From contig CAMAXE010000004.1 of NCBI GenBank assembly GCA_945862145.1, positions 1-64,000 on the forward strand: DNA of 64,000 bases. Reading direction: 5' to 3'. Source of the DNA: Klebsiella pneumoniae (GTDB lineage Bacteria; Pseudomonadota; Gammaproteobacteria; Pseudomonadales; UBA5518). Below are positions 52,245 through 59,864 of this stretch, in pieces; within the stretch, counting starts at the first letter, position 1; every line of letters begins with the position of its first letter. Below the pieces are notes generated by a model. That model was not told where the DNA came from, ran no database searches, and saw only the letters and a program-made list of their open reading frames with translations. The position numbers and the translations under genes were made by a program.

Positions 52245-53429
52245 TCAAAGATCAACGCCGAGTATCAGTCCGCTGGTCGGCACGCCGGTTCCTGCCGTCA
52301 CCAAGGCATGCTCGACGCCAGCGACCTGGTTCACCGCAGATCCCCGCACCTGCCGCGCACCCTCTGCAACGCCGTTCAACCCGTGTATGTAGGCCTCGCC
52401 GATCTGGCCGCCGTGGGTATTCACCGGGAGCTTGCCGCCGCGCGCGATATGGCCATCGCGAATGAAATCTTTGGCCTCACCGCGCCCGCAAAAGCCGAAC
52501 TCCTCAAGCTGCGGCAGCACGAAAGGCGTGAAATGGTCGTAAAGCACAGCGGTCTGGATATCCGCAGGGCCCACGCCGGCCATGCCGTACAACTGCTTGG
52601 CGACCAGACCCATCTCCGGAATCCCGGTGAGATCGGGTTTGTAGAAACCGGTCATCATCTGGAAATCACCGGCCGCGCCCTGCGCGGCACCGCGGATCAC
52701 CACCGGCTTTTGCCGCAGGTCACGCGCGCGATCGATCGAGGTGATAACCAGCGCGACAGCGCCATCACTTTCCTGACAGCAGTCGAGAAGGCGCAGGGGC
52801 TCCGCTATCCAGCGGGAGTTCCGGTGATCCTCGAGCGTGACGGGCTTCTGGTAGAAGAACGCCGCCGGATTGGTGGCAGCGAAGTCGCGGGTCGAGACCG
52901 ACACACGCCCGAAGTCATCGGTGCTGGCACCGTAGGCGTGGAGATAGCGGCGCGCGCACATTGCAACCCACGAGGCAGGGGTCGACAGGCCGAACGGCAT
53001 GTACCAGCCAAAGTGAACGGTCTCGAAGGAGTTGGGATCCTGGGTGATCAGCCCACCCTGTCCGAACCTGAAGCCAGAGCGCTCGTTCATGGCGCGGTAG
53101 ACGACCACGGCACGACAGACCCCTGTGGCCACGGCCATCGCCGCATGCAGCACCGGCCCGCAGGCGGCGCCGCCACCGTAGTGGGTGCGGGAGAAAAACT
53201 TGAGCTCCTTGCCGCCGAGCAGCCGGTAGAGCTCGATCTCCGGGTTGTTGTCCATGGTGTAGGTGGCCATGCCATCTACCTCGTCGATGCCGAGACCCGC
53301 ATCGGCGAGCGCCGCACTGATCGCCTCCACTCCCAACTGGATCTCGCTGCGCCCGGAGTTCTTCGAGAACTCGGTGGCTCCGATACCCGCAATGGCGGTC
53401 CGGCCGCCGAGAAAACTGTTACCGCTCAT
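52245..53429 (-). CDS. Ltp2-like thiolase-fold lipid-transfer protein/aldolase
   Basis: A 394-aa thiolase-superfamily protein of the lipid-transfer (SCP-x/Ltp) branch. It starts GGRTAIAGIGATEFSKNSGR and ends with THGGQIGEAYIHGLNGVAEG, typical of Ltp2, which in actinobacteria performs the retro-aldol step of steroid side-chain removal. Near the usual thiolase nucleophile the sequence reads THYGGGAACG (82-91), so the standard Cys placement is altered, consistent with an aldolase and not a thiolase. Overlaps the MaoC gene start by four bases. Last gene of the minus-strand operon. Confidence 0.85.
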   Translation of the reverse strand: MSGNSFLGGRTAIAGIGATEFSKNSGRSEIQLGVEAISAALADAGLGIDEVDGMATYTMDNNPEIELYRLLGGKELKFFSRTHYGGGAACGPVLHAAMAVATGVCRAVVVYRAMNERSGFRFGQGGLITQDPNSFETVHFGWYMPFGLSTPASWVAMCARRYLHAYGASTDDFGRVSVSTRDFAATNPAAFFYQKPVTLEDHRNSRWIAEPLRLLDCCQESDGAVALVITSIDRARDLRQKPVVIRGAAQGAAGDFQMMTGFYKPDLTGIPEMGLVAKQLYGMAGVGPADIQTAVLYDHFTPFVLPQLEEFGFCGRGEAKDFIRDGHIARGGKLPVNTHGGQIGEAYIHGLNGVAEGARQVRGSAVNQVAGVEHALVTAGTGVPTSGLILGVDL

Positions 53430-53875
53430 GCGCTTGTCCTCGCGGAGGGCAATGCCACGGTCACGGTGCCCGTGACGTGGAAACCAAGGCCGTTTTTACC
53501 TGCCACCTCGATATCGGCGAGGTGATCAGCGCCCTCTTCGCGGAGCGCGGTGATGCGTCCGCGCAACTCCATGTGGTCGCCAGGATAGTTCGGCACACCA
53601 AGCTTTATCTTCACGGAACGCAGCAGCGCCTCGGGCCCCGCCCAATCGCTGATGTAGCGCCCTACCAACCCGTTGGTGGTGAGGATGTTCATGAAAATAT
53701 CCGGTGATCCCAGCGCCTGCGCACCCGGCTTGTCATGGTGCACGTTCTGGTAATCACGGCTGGCGATAGCCGTGGCAACGATCAGCCGGGTAGTGATATC
53801 GATCCCGAACGGCGGAATCTCCTCGCCCACCGCCACGTCGTTGAAACGCCGCGTTTTCAACTCGCTGCCGCTCAT
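53426..53875 (-). CDS. MaoC-like hydratase subunit (ChsH1-like)
   Basis: A 149-aa single hotdog MaoC-like protein: RRFNDVAVGEEIPPFGIDIT, DYQNVHHDKPGAQALGSPDI (the catalytic His/Asp segment) and GVPNYPGDHMELRGRI. It resembles the small subunit of the heteromeric enoyl-CoA hydratase ChsH1-ChsH2 of steroid degradation. ATG 53875 overlaps the upstream dehydrogenase stop; the stop overlaps the Ltp2-like gene. The 32-codon upstream extension is rejected. Confidence 0.85.
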   Translation of the reverse strand: MSGSELKTRRFNDVAVGEEIPPFGIDITTRLIVATAIASRDYQNVHHDKPGAQALGSPDIFMNILTTNGLVGRYISDWAGPEALLRSVKIKLGVPNYPGDHMELRGRITALREEGADHLADIEVAGKNGLGFHVTGTVTVALPSARTSA

Positions 53876-55008
53876 AGTCCGATCTCGATGGATTGCTGAA
53901 CCAGCTGGCTGCCAAAGCCGGCCAGGATGCGCTCGCTGCCGCCGAGGCACAGGCGGATCTGCTGGGCCCACAGGTAATAGCGGTGTATCGGGTAGTCCAC
54001 GTCGGCGCCAGTGCCGCCATGCAGGTGCTGGCAGGCGTGGCTCACGCGGTGCCCCGCTTCACTGGTCCACCATGCGGCAGAGGCCACGGCGTTGCCGGCA
54101 GGCAAACCCTGATCAAGCCGCCACACGGCCTGCCACAGCGTCGAGCGCAGGGCCTCGATATCGATGTAGCAATCCGCGGCACGGTGTGCGACCGCCTGAA
54201 AACCCGCGAGCGGCTTGCCGAACTGCTTGCGCTCACTGGTGTGCTGCGCTGTGCGGCGCAGGGCATCGGCCAGCACGCCGAGCTGGATGAATCCGTAGGC
54301 GGTCGCCGCGCGGCCAGCCATCCACTCCAGGATACAGCTGCCGTCGCCGGAGGCGCCCAGCCGGTCGGCGGCCGTGACACGCACGCCATCGAACAAGATC
54401 CGGTCGAAGGGTTCGAGATTGGTGCCGCGCTCGCGCGCGAAGCTCATTCCCGTTGCGCCACGCGCAACCAGGAACACACTCAACGCGCCGCTCGCATCAC
54501 GCGCGGGAACCAGCAAGGCATCAGCATCGCCGCCATAGGGAACGGGCCCCAGCGCGCCCTGCAAAACAAAATCCTCTCCCGCGGGCGAGACAGCAGGCAC
54601 CTCGGCCGGCTCGTGTTCAAACGGCGAGAGCGCCAGTGGCCCGGACAGGATGACAGCGCCTGCGGCCGCTCTGGTGAGCCAGGCATCGCACTGGGCACGC
54701 GACCCAAAGCGCGCCAGCGGCATGGCGCCCAGAACGGTGGCCGCGAGCAGCGGCAATGCCGCCACATGACGGCCCTGCTCTTGCAGGACCGCGCAGAGGC
54801 CCGAGAGCCCGAGCCCGCTGCCGCCCGCATCCTCGGGCAGCGCAACGCCCACCAGGCCTGCCTCTGCGAGCATCGCCCACACACCCTCGTGCCAGCAGAT
54901 CTCGCCGCGATCGAAGCGCTTGAGTGCTGCATCATCGACCTGCTCGGACAGGATCTGCGCGGCCAGTTCCTGCACCGCGCGCACGTCCTCGGATACTGAA
55001 AATTCCAT
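53872..55008 (-). CDS. Acyl-CoA dehydrogenase, FadE28/ChsE1-like putative non-catalytic subunit
   Basis: A 378-aa acyl-CoA dehydrogenase fold. N-terminal helical domain (EFSVSEDVRAVQELAAQIL), a poor middle beta domain (LGPVPYGGDADALLV), and a C-terminal domain with SERKQFGKPLAGFQAVAH and HLHGGTGADVDYPIHRYY. The helix that carries the catalytic Glu in the partner reads WMAGRAATAYG (239-249), so no Glu, and the other usual site reads CLGGSERIL. It therefore looks like the non-catalytic half of an alpha2beta2 enzyme. One base separates it from the ChsH2-like gene. Confidence 0.82.
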   Translation of the reverse strand: MEFSVSEDVRAVQELAAQILSEQVDDAALKRFDRGEICWHEGVWAMLAEAGLVGVALPEDAGGSGLGLSGLCAVLQEQGRHVAALPLLAATVLGAMPLARFGSRAQCDAWLTRAAAGAVILSGPLALSPFEHEPAEVPAVSPAGEDFVLQGALGPVPYGGDADALLVPARDASGALSVFLVARGATGMSFARERGTNLEPFDRILFDGVRVTAADRLGASGDGSCILEWMAGRAATAYGFIQLGVLADALRRTAQHTSERKQFGKPLAGFQAVAHRAADCYIDIEALRSTLWQAVWRLDQGLPAGNAVASAAWWTSEAGHRVSHACQHLHGGTGADVDYPIHRYYLWAQQIRLCLGGSERILAGFGSQLVQQSIEIGL

Positions 55009-55009
55009 C

Positions 55010-55969
55010 TCAACTCTCCTTGCGGATGCGGAAGAGGGGCAGCGTGTAGCCTTCCTCGACCTCGCGGAAAACTACCTCTACTGGCGTGCCGATCTCGACA
55101 TCCCCGGGCTTCGCATCGACCAGTTGGGTTACCAGGCGGGTGCCCTCCTCCAGCTCGACCAGCAGCACCGTGTTGGGGTAATCGAAGGGCGGAATCGGGG
55201 GGTGGTGCATGACCACGAAGCTGTAGACGATGCCACGCCCGGAGCTCTCCAGCGTGTCCCACTCGAGGGATTGGCAGGACGGGCACATCGGCCCTGGCGG
55301 GTGGCGCAGAACGCCACAGGCCTTGCAGCGCTGGACCAGAAGCTTGCCCGCGCGCACGCCGTCCCAGAAAAACTTCGTGTCGTGCCCCTCGGCCGGACGG
55401 AAGCGGCTGATCTTCGGTGGCTTGGCCGATGTGACCGCCGCAGGCTCGCCAGCCCGCTCATGGGCGCGGTACTTGAAGAGGCGAAACCGCATGTCGCCGA
55501 TCTTCTCGCCGCTTTGGTCCCAGTACTCCTCGAGCTCTGTGACGAAGTAGCCGACGCCGAGCGCCGTGGTCTTTTGCGGCGACACCGCCTCGATGCGCGA
55601 AGTGTGGTGTATGCGATCGCCCGGGCGCAGGTACCGATAATAGGTTTGCTCGCAATTGACCGCGACCACGGCAGGGTAGCCGTGAGACTCAAGAAACTCG
55701 AACACCTCGAAAGGCTCGCGCGTGTCGGAGCCCGTGGCCCACTGCGAGGTCGCACCACGCATGGTCCAGGCCTGCATCATGGTCGGCGGGGCGACGATGC
55801 CGCCATGCACGGACGTCGCCGCAACCGCAGGATCGGTGTAGACGGGGTTGGTGTCGCCCATTGCCTCGCACCAGTGCCGGATCATGGCCTGGTTGACCTC
55901 GTCCCAACTGTTGTAAGGGCCGCAGGGGCGGCCAAGATACTGCTGAAGCTGCTCGTCGATATCACTCAC
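55010..55969 (-). CDS. MaoC/DUF35 fusion hydratase subunit (ChsH2-like)
   Basis: A 319-aa two-domain protein. Residues 1-175 form a MaoC-like hotdog (NQAMIRHWCEAMGDTNPVYT, SVHGGIVAPPTMMQAWTM). Residues 190-319 are a DUF35/OB-fold with a rubredoxin-like zinc ribbon Cys205-Cys208-Cys219-Cys222. The same fusion occurs in ChsH2, where the DUF35 part binds Ltp2. The GTG 55969 start has GGAGGA at 9-nt spacing. First catalytic gene after the TetR gene. Confidence 0.85.
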   Translation of the reverse strand: MSDIDEQLQQYLGRPCGPYNSWDEVNQAMIRHWCEAMGDTNPVYTDPAVAATSVHGGIVAPPTMMQAWTMRGATSQWATGSDTREPFEVFEFLESHGYPAVVAVNCEQTYYRYLRPGDRIHHTSRIEAVSPQKTTALGVGYFVTELEEYWDQSGEKIGDMRFRLFKYRAHERAGEPAAVTSAKPPKISRFRPAEGHDTKFFWDGVRAGKLLVQRCKACGVLRHPPGPMCPSCQSLEWDTLESSGRGIVYSFVVMHHPPIPPFDYPNTVLLVELEEGTRLVTQLVDAKPGDVEIGTPVEVVFREVEEGYTLPLFRIRKES

Positions 55970-55994
55970 GACAAACCGTCCTCCGGTCTCTGTG

Positions 55995-56768
55995 TCAGGT
56001 CTCGGCCTTGAATGCATCACGCCGGGGGCGTCGCATCTCGGCCAGCTTGGCCGCATGGCGCAGGCGCACCGGCGGCGGATTTTCCAGGAACAGGGCCCGG
56101 TGGAACATCACCGTCACCCATTCCGCCATCTGTTCTTCGTCGAGCTCGATCTCGCGCACGGCAGGTGACTTGACGATGTAATACTCGGTCAGCAGGTGCT
56201 CGCCTATGCTGGCCAGGATCCGTGTCACCAATCGGGCCTCGGTATCGCCGAGTCCGGCCGCCGGAAACAGCCGCGGCATCGCGCGCACCAGCAACTCGAG
56301 GCGCCGGAAGTAGCTCAGGCGCCAGATCTCGCCGAACTCGGGCACCTCATCGCCTACCTGGACCATGCAGCGCATGATGCCCGGGTAGCGGCAATAGCTC
56401 TGCACCACCAGCAGATTGTGAGCAAGGCTGCGCCCGTACCAATCGCCTTTCTCCACCTCCCGCTCGATCGCCTCGAGATCCTCGAAGCGGGTCATGAAGT
56501 CACGCAACACCTCGATAGTGGCGGTCTTCAGATCGGGGAAATAGTGGTGGAAAAGCCCGGTGGCCACGCCGGCCTCCCGGGTCACATCCGTCACCCGCAT
56601 CTGCCGATAACCCTCGCGCTCCAGTACCCGGGCGGTAGCCTCTTTCAATCTTGCCCGCGCCACTTCGCCACGGGCGCTGTGCAGGACGCGCGCCGCACGC
56701 GCGAGAGGCCGTGCCACCCTTTCGGGCGTGGCACCAGCATCGGCTTGTTTGCGGGTTGCATTGGACAT
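55995..56768 (-). CDS. TetR family transcriptional regulator
   Basis: A 257-aa regulator from ATG 56768. The HTH is TARVLEREGYRQMRVTDVTREAGVATGLFHHYFPDLKTA (about 45-85, TetR type); the C-terminal ligand domain is helical and unremarkable. The long in-frame extension upstream is rejected because it crosses the operator. It is divergent from an acyl-CoA dehydrogenase and upstream, on the same strand, of the side-chain operon, so it likely represses both arms and is released by an acyl-CoA or steroid ligand. Confidence 0.88.
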   Translation of the reverse strand: MSNATRKQADAGATPERVARPLARAARVLHSARGEVARARLKEATARVLEREGYRQMRVTDVTREAGVATGLFHHYFPDLKTATIEVLRDFMTRFEDLEAIEREVEKGDWYGRSLAHNLLVVQSYCRYPGIMRCMVQVGDEVPEFGEIWRLSYFRRLELLVRAMPRLFPAAGLGDTEARLVTRILASIGEHLLTEYYIVKSPAVREIELDEEQMAEWVTVMFHRALFLENPPPVRLRHAAKLAEMRRPRRDAFKAET

Positions 56769-56782
56769 GCGCCGCATTCTTA

Positions 56783-56804
56783 TTGAATTTGAATTCAATT
56801 TCAA
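56783..56804. promoter_or_regulatory. Palindromic operator for the TetR regulator
   Basis: A 22-bp near-perfect palindrome in an AT-rich island: inner TTGAATTCAA (perfect), outer TTGAA ... TTCAA, with only one mismatched pair. It lies 14 bp upstream of the TetR ATG and 34 bp upstream of the divergent dehydrogenase ATG. Confidence 0.78.
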
Positions 56805-56838
56805 TATGATGGGCGCAGGCCACAGCGGAGAGAGCCCC

Positions 56839-58017
56839 ATGCACGTCGACTACACCGATTCCCAGAAGGCCCTGCGCCGCGAACTGCGCAGCTATTTCAG
56901 TGATTTGATGACCCCCGAAATCCGCGAAGAGACCCGCGGCAATGAAGGCGGCGCGACCTACAAACGCGTCATCCGCCAACTCGGCCAGGACGGCTGGCTC
57001 GCGCTCGGCTGGCCGCGGGAATACGGTGGCCAAGGCCGCCCGAGCTCGGAACAGCTGGTGTTCTTCGAGGAGGCGCAACTTGCCGAAGTGCCCCTGCCCT
57101 TCGTGACCATCAGCACGGTGGCGCCGGCGCTTATCGCGCTGGGCTCGGACGAACACAAACAATTTTTCCTGCCGCGGATTGCCACTGGCGAGTTGCACTT
57201 CGCCATCGGCTACACCGAGCCGGGCGCCGGCACTGATCTCGCCGCCCTGAAGACCAGCGCCGTGCGCGATGGCGATGATTACCTGATCAACGGCAACAAG
57301 ATCTGGACCAGCAGCGCCGAGGCCGCCGATTACGTCTGGCTCGCCGCCCGCACCGATCAGGACGTGCAGCCGCCACACAAGGGCATCAGCATCTTCATGG
57401 TCGATGCCACGCTGCCAGGCTTCAGCTTCACGCCGATCCGCACCGTGGGTGGCGTGCGCAGCAATGCCAGCTACTACGACAACGTGCGCGTGCCGGCCTC
57501 GATGATTGCCGGCCCGCTTAACGGCGGCTGGAAACTGATCACCTCGCAGCTTAACCACGAGCGGGTGGGACTTGCCGCGATCGGCGTACAGGGTTGGGGA
57601 CTCCTCGCCCGCACACTGGCCTGGGCACAGGAGGCGGTAGTCGGTGGCAAGCGGGTGGTGGAGCAACCGTGGGCGCAATCGGCCCTCGCCGAGGTCTATG
57701 CCCGGCTGGAGGCGATGCGCCTCATGAACTGGCGCATGGCCTGGCAGCTCGACACCGGCGAGCCGGATCCCGCCTTCGCATCAGCCATGAAGGCCTACAG
57801 CACCGAGTGCCTGGTTGCGGTCGACAAGCTGATGCTCGAGGTCACGGGAATGGCCGGCGGCTATCGCCGCGGCAGCCCCGGATCGGCGCTGGCCGGCGAT
57901 CTGGAGCAGCACTACCGGAAATGCCAGATCAATACCTTCGGTGGCGGCGTCGCCGAAGTGATGCGCGATCTGGTGGCGCAATTCGGCCTTGGCATGTCGG
58001 CCTACAGTCGCCGCTGA
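56839..58017 (+). CDS. Acyl-CoA dehydrogenase, putative catalytic subunit (FadE29/ChsE2-like)
   Basis: A 392-aa flavin dehydrogenase. N-terminus MHVDYTDSQKALRRELRSYF; flavin-binding GYTEPGAGTDLAAL (124-137) and KIWTSSAEAADYVWL; the helix with LNHERVGLAA places Glu241 at the internal catalytic position seen in this subgroup. It would oxidise an acyl-CoA side chain with electron transfer flavoprotein as acceptor. ATG 56839 has GGAGAGAG upstream. Divergent from the TetR gene and probably the partner of the 378-aa dehydrogenase. Ends 9 bp from the convergent EamA gene. Confidence 0.87.
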   Translation: MHVDYTDSQKALRRELRSYFSDLMTPEIREETRGNEGGATYKRVIRQLGQDGWLALGWPREYGGQGRPSSEQLVFFEEAQLAEVPLPFVTISTVAPALIALGSDEHKQFFLPRIATGELHFAIGYTEPGAGTDLAALKTSAVRDGDDYLINGNKIWTSSAEAADYVWLAARTDQDVQPPHKGISIFMVDATLPGFSFTPIRTVGGVRSNASYYDNVRVPASMIAGPLNGGWKLITSQLNHERVGLAAIGVQGWGLLARTLAWAQEAVVGGKRVVEQPWAQSALAEVYARLEAMRLMNWRMAWQLDTGEPDPAFASAMKAYSTECLVAVDKLMLEVTGMAGGYRRGSPGSALAGDLEQHYRKCQINTFGGGVAEVMRDLVAQFGLGMSAYSRR

Positions 58018-58961: not shown

Positions 58962-59864
58962 TCAGGCGGAGTCGCGCACCGCGATCAGCCGCGCGTAGAA
59001 GGGCTCGAGTTCTTCGGGGGCATGAACGTAGGCATGGTGTTCGAATTCCATCACCGTGACGCCTGCCGCAAGCAACTCCGGAATCGCGTCGATCGACTCT
59101 TCCAGACTGCAGCGACCATTGGCATCCCAGTTCATCGGCACGTGGGCGCGCACCTGCAGGGTGGCGGGATCGCGGCCGGCCTTTTCGTAGGCGTTGCGGA
59201 TGACGGCAACGCCGTTGCGGATGTACTCCGCGCTGGTGGATATCGGGATCCAACCCACGCCAAGTTCCGCGATACGCTGGGCCTGGCGCTCGGTGGGCTG
59301 CACGCCATACCACAGCGGAATGCTATTGGCGGCCGGAAACGGTGTGCTGTAGATCCGCGAGAAGTTCACCGTCTTCGAGCTGAAGGTGGCGGGAGCCTCG
59401 CGCCAGAGCAGCTGCATGGCGCGGGCGCCATCGTCGAACATCGTCCAGCGCTGATCGAAATCGAGTCCGGACGCCTCGTACTCCTCGCGCTGCCAGCCGG
59501 TGCCGATGCCAAGCTCGATGCGCCCGGGCGCCAGGCTGTCCAGCGTGGCGAGTGTCTTGGCCAGCAGCACGGCCGGGCGCAGCGGGGAAATCAGCACGCC
59601 GGTGGCGAGCCTCACCTGCCGAGTACGCACCGCGATGGCGGTCAGCATGGTGAGCGGCTCGAACCAGGGGGCGATTGGCGGCAGCGGGAACGGACCGTAG
59701 GGATAGCGATCGGTGTTCTCGCCCATCACCACGTGGTCGGTGAAACACACCAGGTCGATGCCGGCGGCATCGGCGAGTTCAGCAGCCTTGATGTAGCCGC
59801 GGGCATCGCCATCGAACATGTTGTGCAGGCCGAACATGCCCAACGCTATCTGGAACTTCGCCAT
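58962..59864 (-). CDS. LLM class (luciferase-like) oxidoreductase, F420-type
   Basis: A 300-aa TIM-barrel flavin- or F420-dependent enzyme. The N-terminus FQIALGMFGLHNMF, FTDHVVMGENTDRYPYG, TGVLISPLRPAVLLAKTLATLD (strand and phosphate region) and LGIGTGWQREEYEASG are characteristic. It would act as a monooxygenase or dehydrogenase; the cofactor is not certain. ATG 59864 follows a GAGAGGA site. It sits in the catabolic block between the transporter and NTF2-like genes. Confidence 0.88.
   Translation of the reverse strand: MAKFQIALGMFGLHNMFDGDARGYIKAAELADAAGIDLVCFTDHVVMGENTDRYPYGPFPLPPIAPWFEPLTMLTAIAVRTRQVRLATGVLISPLRPAVLLAKTLATLDSLAPGRIELGIGTGWQREEYEASGLDFDQRWTMFDDGARAMQLLWREAPATFSSKTVNFSRIYSTPFPAANSIPLWYGVQPTERQAQRIAELGVGWIPISTSAEYIRNGVAVIRNAYEKAGRDPATLQVRAHVPMNWDANGRCSLEESIDAIPELLAAGVTVMEFEHHAYVHAPEELEPFYARLIAVRDSA

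Follow-up and report, generated by a model that had tools for sequence, protein, structure and literature searches.

We identify, at positions 52245-58017 of a 64,000-nt stretch of gammaproteobacterial DNA (the window), a set of five enzyme genes and a TetR-family regulator gene that very probably constitutes the propionyl-CoA-releasing part of aerobic steroid side-chain degradation. This reading draws on homologies, gene order and catalytic residues within the locus and on homologues of ring-degradation genes elsewhere in the genome. All five module proteins are encoded together, as seen from the open reading frame (ORF) list and from Pfam, NCBIfam and PDB searches, and the genes named in a preliminary description of this DNA (an Ltp2-like gene, two MaoC-type genes, two acyl-CoA dehydrogenases (ACADs) and a TetR gene) are all intact ORFs. 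On the minus strand the order is tetR-chsH2(MaoC-DUF35)-chsE1-chsH1-ltp2, with 4-base overlaps at chsE1/chsH1 and chsH1/ltp2, and chsE2 is divergent on the plus strand:

52245..53429, minus strand: ltp2 (sal2, ORF43-type), predicted steroid C3 side-chain retro-aldolase, 394 amino acids (aa), from PDB matches, PRK07855 and residues
53426..53875, minus strand: chsH1-type MaoC hydratase subunit, 149 aa, from PDB 4wnb_B and an aligned stretch
53872..55008, minus strand: chsE1-type acyl-CoA dehydrogenase subunit, 378 aa, from PDB 6wy8_A/4x28_D and the ChsE1 clade
55010..55972, minus strand: chsH2-type fusion of MaoC and DUF35, 320 aa, its start uncertain, with a longer frame to 56056
55995..~56777, minus strand: TetR-family regulator heading the minus-strand unit, start codon ATG near 56768 or 56777
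56781..56806, no strand: putative operator, an AT-rich palindrome of 26 bp in the tetR-chsE2 gap, with pairing at 12 of 13 positions
56839..58017, plus strand: chsE2-type acyl-CoA dehydrogenase subunit, divergent, from PDB 4x28_A/6wy8_B and the ChsE2 clade

The five enzymes match solved steroid enzymes with best PDB-match E-values of 3.8e-32 to 1.9e-167, and Ltp2, ChsH1 and ChsH2 best match the solved complexes of the steroid C3 side chain (6ok1, 4wnb/4w78). Ltp2 finds its best PDB match in 6ok1_A (560.6 bits, E 1.9e-167), and it scores 653 bits against the PRK07855 lipid-transfer protein model (cut-off 469). The ChsH1-like protein matches 4wnb_B (114.6 bits, E 3.8e-32); its stretch RDYQNVHHD aligns to RDFQDVHHD of that chain and carries the hydratase Asp/His residues, which we take to be catalytic. 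In the ChsH2 protein, residues 2-182 match 4wnb_A (127.6 bits; 4w78_A matched too) and residues 192-315, the DUF35 end, match 6ok1_B (142.8 bits). The fusion of MaoC with a zinc-ribbon/OB domain, proposed in the preliminary description, is borne out by Pfam zf-ChsH2 (41 bits, cut-off 23.2) and OB_ChsH2_C (63.9, cut-off 27.1) and by the PDB match to MaoC, from which the call in the front half comes, the Pfam label there being FAS1_DH_region. The DUF35 domain carries a zinc ribbon of the form C-x2-C-x10-C-x2-C (C4). Ltp2 has the motif YDHF with Y297 and a second Tyr, Y347, at the same 50-residue spacing as Tyr294 of YDHF and Tyr344 in the C3 enzyme TcLtp2, the residues given in an excerpt of PMC12329534.

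The set recurs in related order across distant lineages. A genome scan by Ltp2 alone found at least 567 stretches encoding a relative, and the best 80 of them supply the locus counts given here. ChsH2-ChsE1-ChsH1-Ltp2 stand in that order on one strand in 59 of the 80, some of the rest being short contigs, and the ordered loci span Proteobacteria, Myxococcota and Actinomycetota. ChsE2 (at least 40% identity) lies downstream on the same strand in 37 loci, upstream on the same strand in 10 and on the other strand in 10, six of the last with TetR (L014-L019); the fetched flank holds none in 23. L014-L017 belong to same-genus genomes (G014, G012, G013 and G010) and L018 and L019 to Parahaliea. Compared by tblastn with the operon of Comamonas testosteroni NFYY023, whose ORFs were picked by a criterion of GC content at third codon positions (GC3), the window proteins are identical at 52% (ChsE2), 68% (Ltp2), 52% (ChsH1), 36% (ChsE1) and 48% (ChsH2). 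Each value exceeds its published counterpart between C. testosteroni and Mycobacterium tuberculosis (44-49, 61-64, 34-38, 31 and 43-44%, respectively), taken from Table 2 in the excerpt of PMC12502768 and obtained with another strain and method. YDHF and the second Tyr occur in 86 of the 93 rows of the Ltp2 alignment (the window, 80/80 loci and five plasmid loci); the seven rows without them are C. testosteroni Sal and six paralogues from the window's own genome. The end motif THGGQIGEAY, described earlier as specific, is present and its Tyr is Y347, but it is not exclusive to complete steroid modules: the plasmid rows L119-L121 carry YDHF and Tyr, yet have no ChsE1/ChsE2 beside them. Loci L055, L056, L119 and L120 encode an Ltp2-type protein with an adjacent DUF35 match and no ChsE1 or ChsE2 alongside, and in L119 and L120 the surrounding genes encode CaiB, enoyl-CoA hydratase or aromatic dioxygenase. 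The Ltp2-type proteins of these four loci are possible retro-aldolases for other substrates.

The two ACADs match heteromeric steroid ACADs of solved structure and group with the ChsE1/ChsE2 pair by tree placement. The top two PDB matches of the ChsE1-type protein are 6wy8_A (Tcur3481, 236.9 bits) and 4x28_D (202.3), the third standing at 109.5; those of the ChsE2-type protein are 4x28_A (428.5 bits) and 6wy8_B (Tcur3483, 422.2 bits), its start having been set from the 4x28_A alignment (it begins MHVDYT), with 13 extra N-terminal residues in the PDB-search query. The Glu of LNHER in 4x28_A is kept in the window ChsE2; we take 4x28 to be ChsE4-ChsE5 and its Glu247 to be catalytic. Among the ACAD PDB matches listed (the best 60 of 78 and the best 60 of 105) no chain is named ChsE1 or ChsE2; the tree and the operon are therefore the basis for telling E1 from E2. 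That tree (FastTree, 78 rows) holds 11 of the genome's 46 ACADs, 9 Comamonas ACADs and locus rows chosen by match to the window proteins, and in it the window pair falls with the ChsE1 and ChsE2 rows, not with general ACADs. The ChsE1 clade (31 rows, support 1.0) includes the window ACAD, the equivalent of C. testosteroni ORF41 and an ACAD from contig C5 of the same genome; the ChsE2 clade (30 rows, support 0.963) includes the window ACAD and the ORF44 equivalent, with the other C5 ACAD next outside. As a query, ChsE2 draws 46 ACAD-type matches from its own genome, module included, and finds matches in 9/9 named genomes (7 to 104 ACADs each), as any ACAD-bearing genome would give.

The earlier statement that no core ring-degradation genes lie in the window holds for the KshA_C, HsaC-like and HsaA families, which in genome-wide searches have no match on C4, the contig of the window (other ring genes were not searched singly there), and it is a property of the window only. 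Elsewhere in the genome KshA_C is found at five places, all above the Pfam cut-off of 23.3 (104 to 236 bits). Four genes at C2:119072-123240 follow the same order as their counterparts in C. testosteroni, presumably those named tesD-E-F-G. Their products are an HsaD-like hydrolase (43% identity), a 2-oxopent-4-enoate hydratase-like protein (63%), an acetaldehyde dehydrogenase (75%) and a 4-hydroxy-2-oxovalerate aldolase (73%); the dehydrogenase and aldolase models score above their cut-offs and the hydratase slightly under (387 vs 408.8). HsaC-like proteins are encoded at three places, one of them C2:129052-130035 and none above the TIGR03213 cut-off, HsaA-like proteins at C11, C34 and C2:191178, the last adjoining a KshA, and KstD-like proteins at C1:22328 and C2:197448. 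By its gene content, with homologues of KshA, KstD, HsaA, HsaC and HsaD-G, the organism is a probable steroid degrader. The outcome named in advance as contrary, a grouping with general families in a genome without other sterol genes, fails on both counts because the five enzymes match the igr set and ring-gene homologues are present in the genome.

Co-occurrence across the order points the same way. With thresholds of E 1e-120 or better for Ltp2 and E 1e-20 for KshA, 24 of 145 genomes have an Ltp2 match, 39 have KshA and 22 have both, so that KshA is found in 22/24 genomes with Ltp2 and in 17/121 without. It is present in 10/10 genomes whose Ltp2 is at least 63% identical and in 12/14 at 49-57%; the two Ltp2-bearing genomes without it are G131 and G011, the latter of the same genus as the window. 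Within that genus, 6/6 genomes have an Ltp2 match (identity is at least 90% in five and 55% in G011), and KshA is present in 5/6. The 55% protein of G011 has ChsH1- and ChsH2-like neighbours on a short flank (L139). An excerpt of PMC5790920 describes new gammaproteobacterial steroid-degrading lineages, with fresh-water matches mainly to Burkholderiales, Sphingomonadales and Actinobacteria.

Several observations weigh against a steroid role. The ring-gene homologues lie on other contigs and do not adjoin the module, and HsaA (394/450), HsaC (283/450), HsaD (175/400) and KstD (574/788) all score under their NCBIfam cut-offs in bits. Within the module, Pfam gives the ChsH1-like protein no family at E 0.001, both ACADs have pimeloyl-CoA dehydrogenases as their best NCBIfam models, far below cut-off, and ChsE1 is the least conserved of the five parts; the presence of the C5 ACAD inside the ChsE1 clade means that clade membership alone leaves the substrate unfixed. 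The association of KshA with Ltp2 (Fisher p 1.8e-13 by genome; 1.7e-9 by genus, 16/17 vs 12/74) is uncorrected for kinship. The genus is not uniform, since G011 encodes two Ltp2-like proteins (50 and 55%) and lacks a KshA_C match.

According to the excerpt of PMC12329534, Sal is a homologue of Ltp2 and each has a DUF35 protein as its partner; the module might on that account serve the C5 bile-acid cycle (Sal/Shy type) in place of the C3 cycle. We consider this very improbable. In the same excerpt Sal/Shy are marked by YDCY, Gln352 and a Cys3His1 zinc site, whereas the window has YDHF and Tyr347, not YDCY and Gln, and a C4 zinc site, not Cys3His1; a Sal-type (C5) assignment of the module is rejected on these two features. 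Ltp2 also stands apart from C. testosteroni Sal in a quick tree, in which Sal is a long branch and long-branch warnings apply to Sal and to the own-genome paralogues, and a Sal-like protein (YDCF, with His at the place of the second Tyr) and its DUF35 partner have their genes at a different locus, C8:112361-114012.

It is likewise unlikely, though less so, that the same chemistry acts on a different branched cyclic acyl-CoA, of terpenoid or alkylphenol origin, through enzymes recruited away from steroids. Ltp2-type proteins with the same residues are encoded beside CaiB, enoyl-CoA hydratase, P450 or aromatic dioxygenase genes in the plasmid loci L119 and L120, Pseudomaricurvus alkylphenolicus, whose species name points to alkylphenols, has two Ltp2 copies (L020, L022), and the ring genes here are not adjacent to the module. 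However, all five subunits, beyond Ltp2, match the steroid set, KshA accompanies Ltp2 in nearly all Ltp2-bearing genomes of the order, and genes of the KshA, KstD and Hsa types are present in the genome itself. That general fatty-acid genes came together here by chance, without any part in steroid degradation, is scarcely credible: the genome is rich in such genes (46 ACAD and 12 DUF35 matches, module included), but tree placement, E-values to steroid complexes and a gene order conserved in loci of Proteobacteria, Myxococcota and Actinomycetota already contradict it.

Under the steroid reading, the following activities in the organism, complexes, substrate and regulation are predicted. ChsE1-ChsE2 would introduce a C17-C20 double bond into a steroid-22-oyl-CoA, which may derive from a sterol or a bile salt, and ChsH1 with the MaoC part of ChsH2 would hydrate it to the 17-hydroxy compound. 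Ltp2, seated on the DUF35 domain of ChsH2, would then carry out a retro-aldol split to a 17-ketosteroid and propionyl-CoA, and the 17-ketosteroid would be opened by enzymes of the KstD, KshA and Hsa types, whose genes lie on other contigs. The TetR protein probably acts at the palindrome as a repressor of the two divergent units, with relief by an acyl-CoA intermediate.

The regulator matches Pfam TetR_N (31.8 bits, cut-off 24), and its PDB matches are weak and mostly confined to the helix-turn-helix region. KstR (5ua2) is 13th of 20 PDB matches (residues 3-90, E 0.0014); a KstR-type regulator is unsupported, KstR not being the closest solved relative, and no search was made for KstR2 by itself. 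According to an excerpt of PMC8399759, bile acid-degrading Proteobacteria have no KstR homologues. The gap between tetR and chsE2 contains the palindrome TATTGAATTTGAATTCAATTTCAATA (56781-56806), with 15% GC vs 65% for the window. A similar site was found by eye in the same gap of 6/6 loci L014-L019, both Parahaliea sites being more diverged; the automatic best-palindrome pick fell at another place in L018 and in a register shifted by 3 bases in L017, and both of these sites were read by eye. The window has one more palindrome with 12/13 pairs (44708), and values of 10-12 pairs also arise in 20 shuffled windows; the case for the site therefore rests on its place, its AT content and the related loci, not on its score. 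A reduced pattern has no second match with fewer than 3 mismatches in the genome; at up to 3 it recovers, besides the site, four more places in the genome, all at 3 mismatches. On this result the palindrome was not taken to mark a wider regulon. A thin literature search found no report of this TetR regulator. Divergent chsE2, a dedicated TetR and the palindrome in this genus and Parahaliea are possibly a small novelty.

The genome holds further igr-like sets. The second, at C8:112361-120649 (L095), comprises two ACADs, a separate DUF35 protein, an Ltp2-like protein (YDAF/Tyr, 42% to window Ltp2), a ChsH1-like MaoC (35%) and a further protein that is MaoC-like by eye, and it adjoins a P450 (best PDB matches CYP125MRCA, 173 bits) and the Sal-like YDCF protein with its own DUF35. 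The third, at C5:33027-37246 (L114), combines a pair of ACADs, one at 40% identity to ChsE1 and the other at 48% to ChsE2 of the window, with a divergent DUF35 protein and a protein of Ltp2/thiolase type (31%). With 46 ACAD-type matches, 12 DUF35 matches and five KshA-type oxygenases, the genome carries much machinery for cyclic or branched substrates. Beside the module, at 58962-59864 on the minus strand, lies an LLM-class oxidoreductase gene of the F420-type family TIGR03619 (above cut-off), and such a gene stands near the module in L014-L017 as well. We tentatively suggest, at somewhat under even chances, a private regulon in this genus and Parahaliea, in which a TetR unlike KstR would bind one palindrome and respond to an acyl-CoA from late in side-chain breakdown, giving the last cut a control separate from that of ring degradation, while the three igr-like sets (window, C8 and C5) would serve different cycles or substrates.

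These findings add a gammaproteobacterial genus, known here from metagenome-assembled genomes only, to the probable steroid degraders, and give a candidate regulator-operator pair for proteobacterial side-chain degradation; known chemistry is unchanged. The names of some same-genus records (Loc090116, Erken, Ja1, Gw) suggest an origin in lakes.

The comparison with actinobacteria made in the preliminary description stands as to the same five enzymes, but the set is not oddly actinobacterial, being common in Proteobacteria and demonstrated in C. testosteroni TA441 (PMC12502768). The module itself is already known from other proteobacteria and the enzyme kit is not new. ORF40-44 of C. testosteroni TA441 (ChsH2, ChsE1, ChsH1, Ltp2, ChsE2), identified as this module by gene disruption in 2025, encode the same five proteins as the window, with the order of the first four genes and the MaoC-DUF35 fusion alike (PMC12502768, in excerpt). 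That work and the four-gene core in 59/80 loci make the presence of the module unsurprising. In Comamonas, ChsE2 follows Ltp2 on the same strand (strain NFYY023 equivalents), whereas the window ChsE2 is divergent behind TetR and the palindrome. The excerpt of PMC12502768 places the Comamonas ring genes in one 120-kb mega-cluster, whereas their homologues here lie on several contigs.

The M. tuberculosis igr and T. curvata Ltp2-ChsH2DUF35 (6ok1) and ChsH1-ChsH2 (4w78/4wnb) systems match the window in sequence and catalytic residues for Ltp2, ChsH1 and ChsH2. The igr operon presumably includes the CYP125 P450, which has no counterpart in the window module. Mycobacterial sterol genes are under KstR, in the excerpt of PMC8399759, whereas a TetR not closely related to KstR stands in front here. 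The same excerpt lists Stutzerimonas stutzeri Chol1, C. testosteroni CNB-2 and R. jostii RHA1 with the same genes, and Scd2AB-Shy2-Sal2 of Chol1 make up the same reaction set in a gammaproteobacterium (PMC8399759 and PMC12502768, both in excerpt). All five genes are also present in S. stutzeri K1 (L032), where ChsE2 is downstream in the same orientation and no match to TetR is seen. Parahaliea mediterranea and P. maris (L018, L019), whose fetched flanks hold no LLM or EamA match and whose Ltp2 and TetR are 75-76% and 46-47% identical to those of the window, share the same tetR-chsH2-chsE1-chsH1-ltp2 unit, the divergent chsE2 and a related palindrome.

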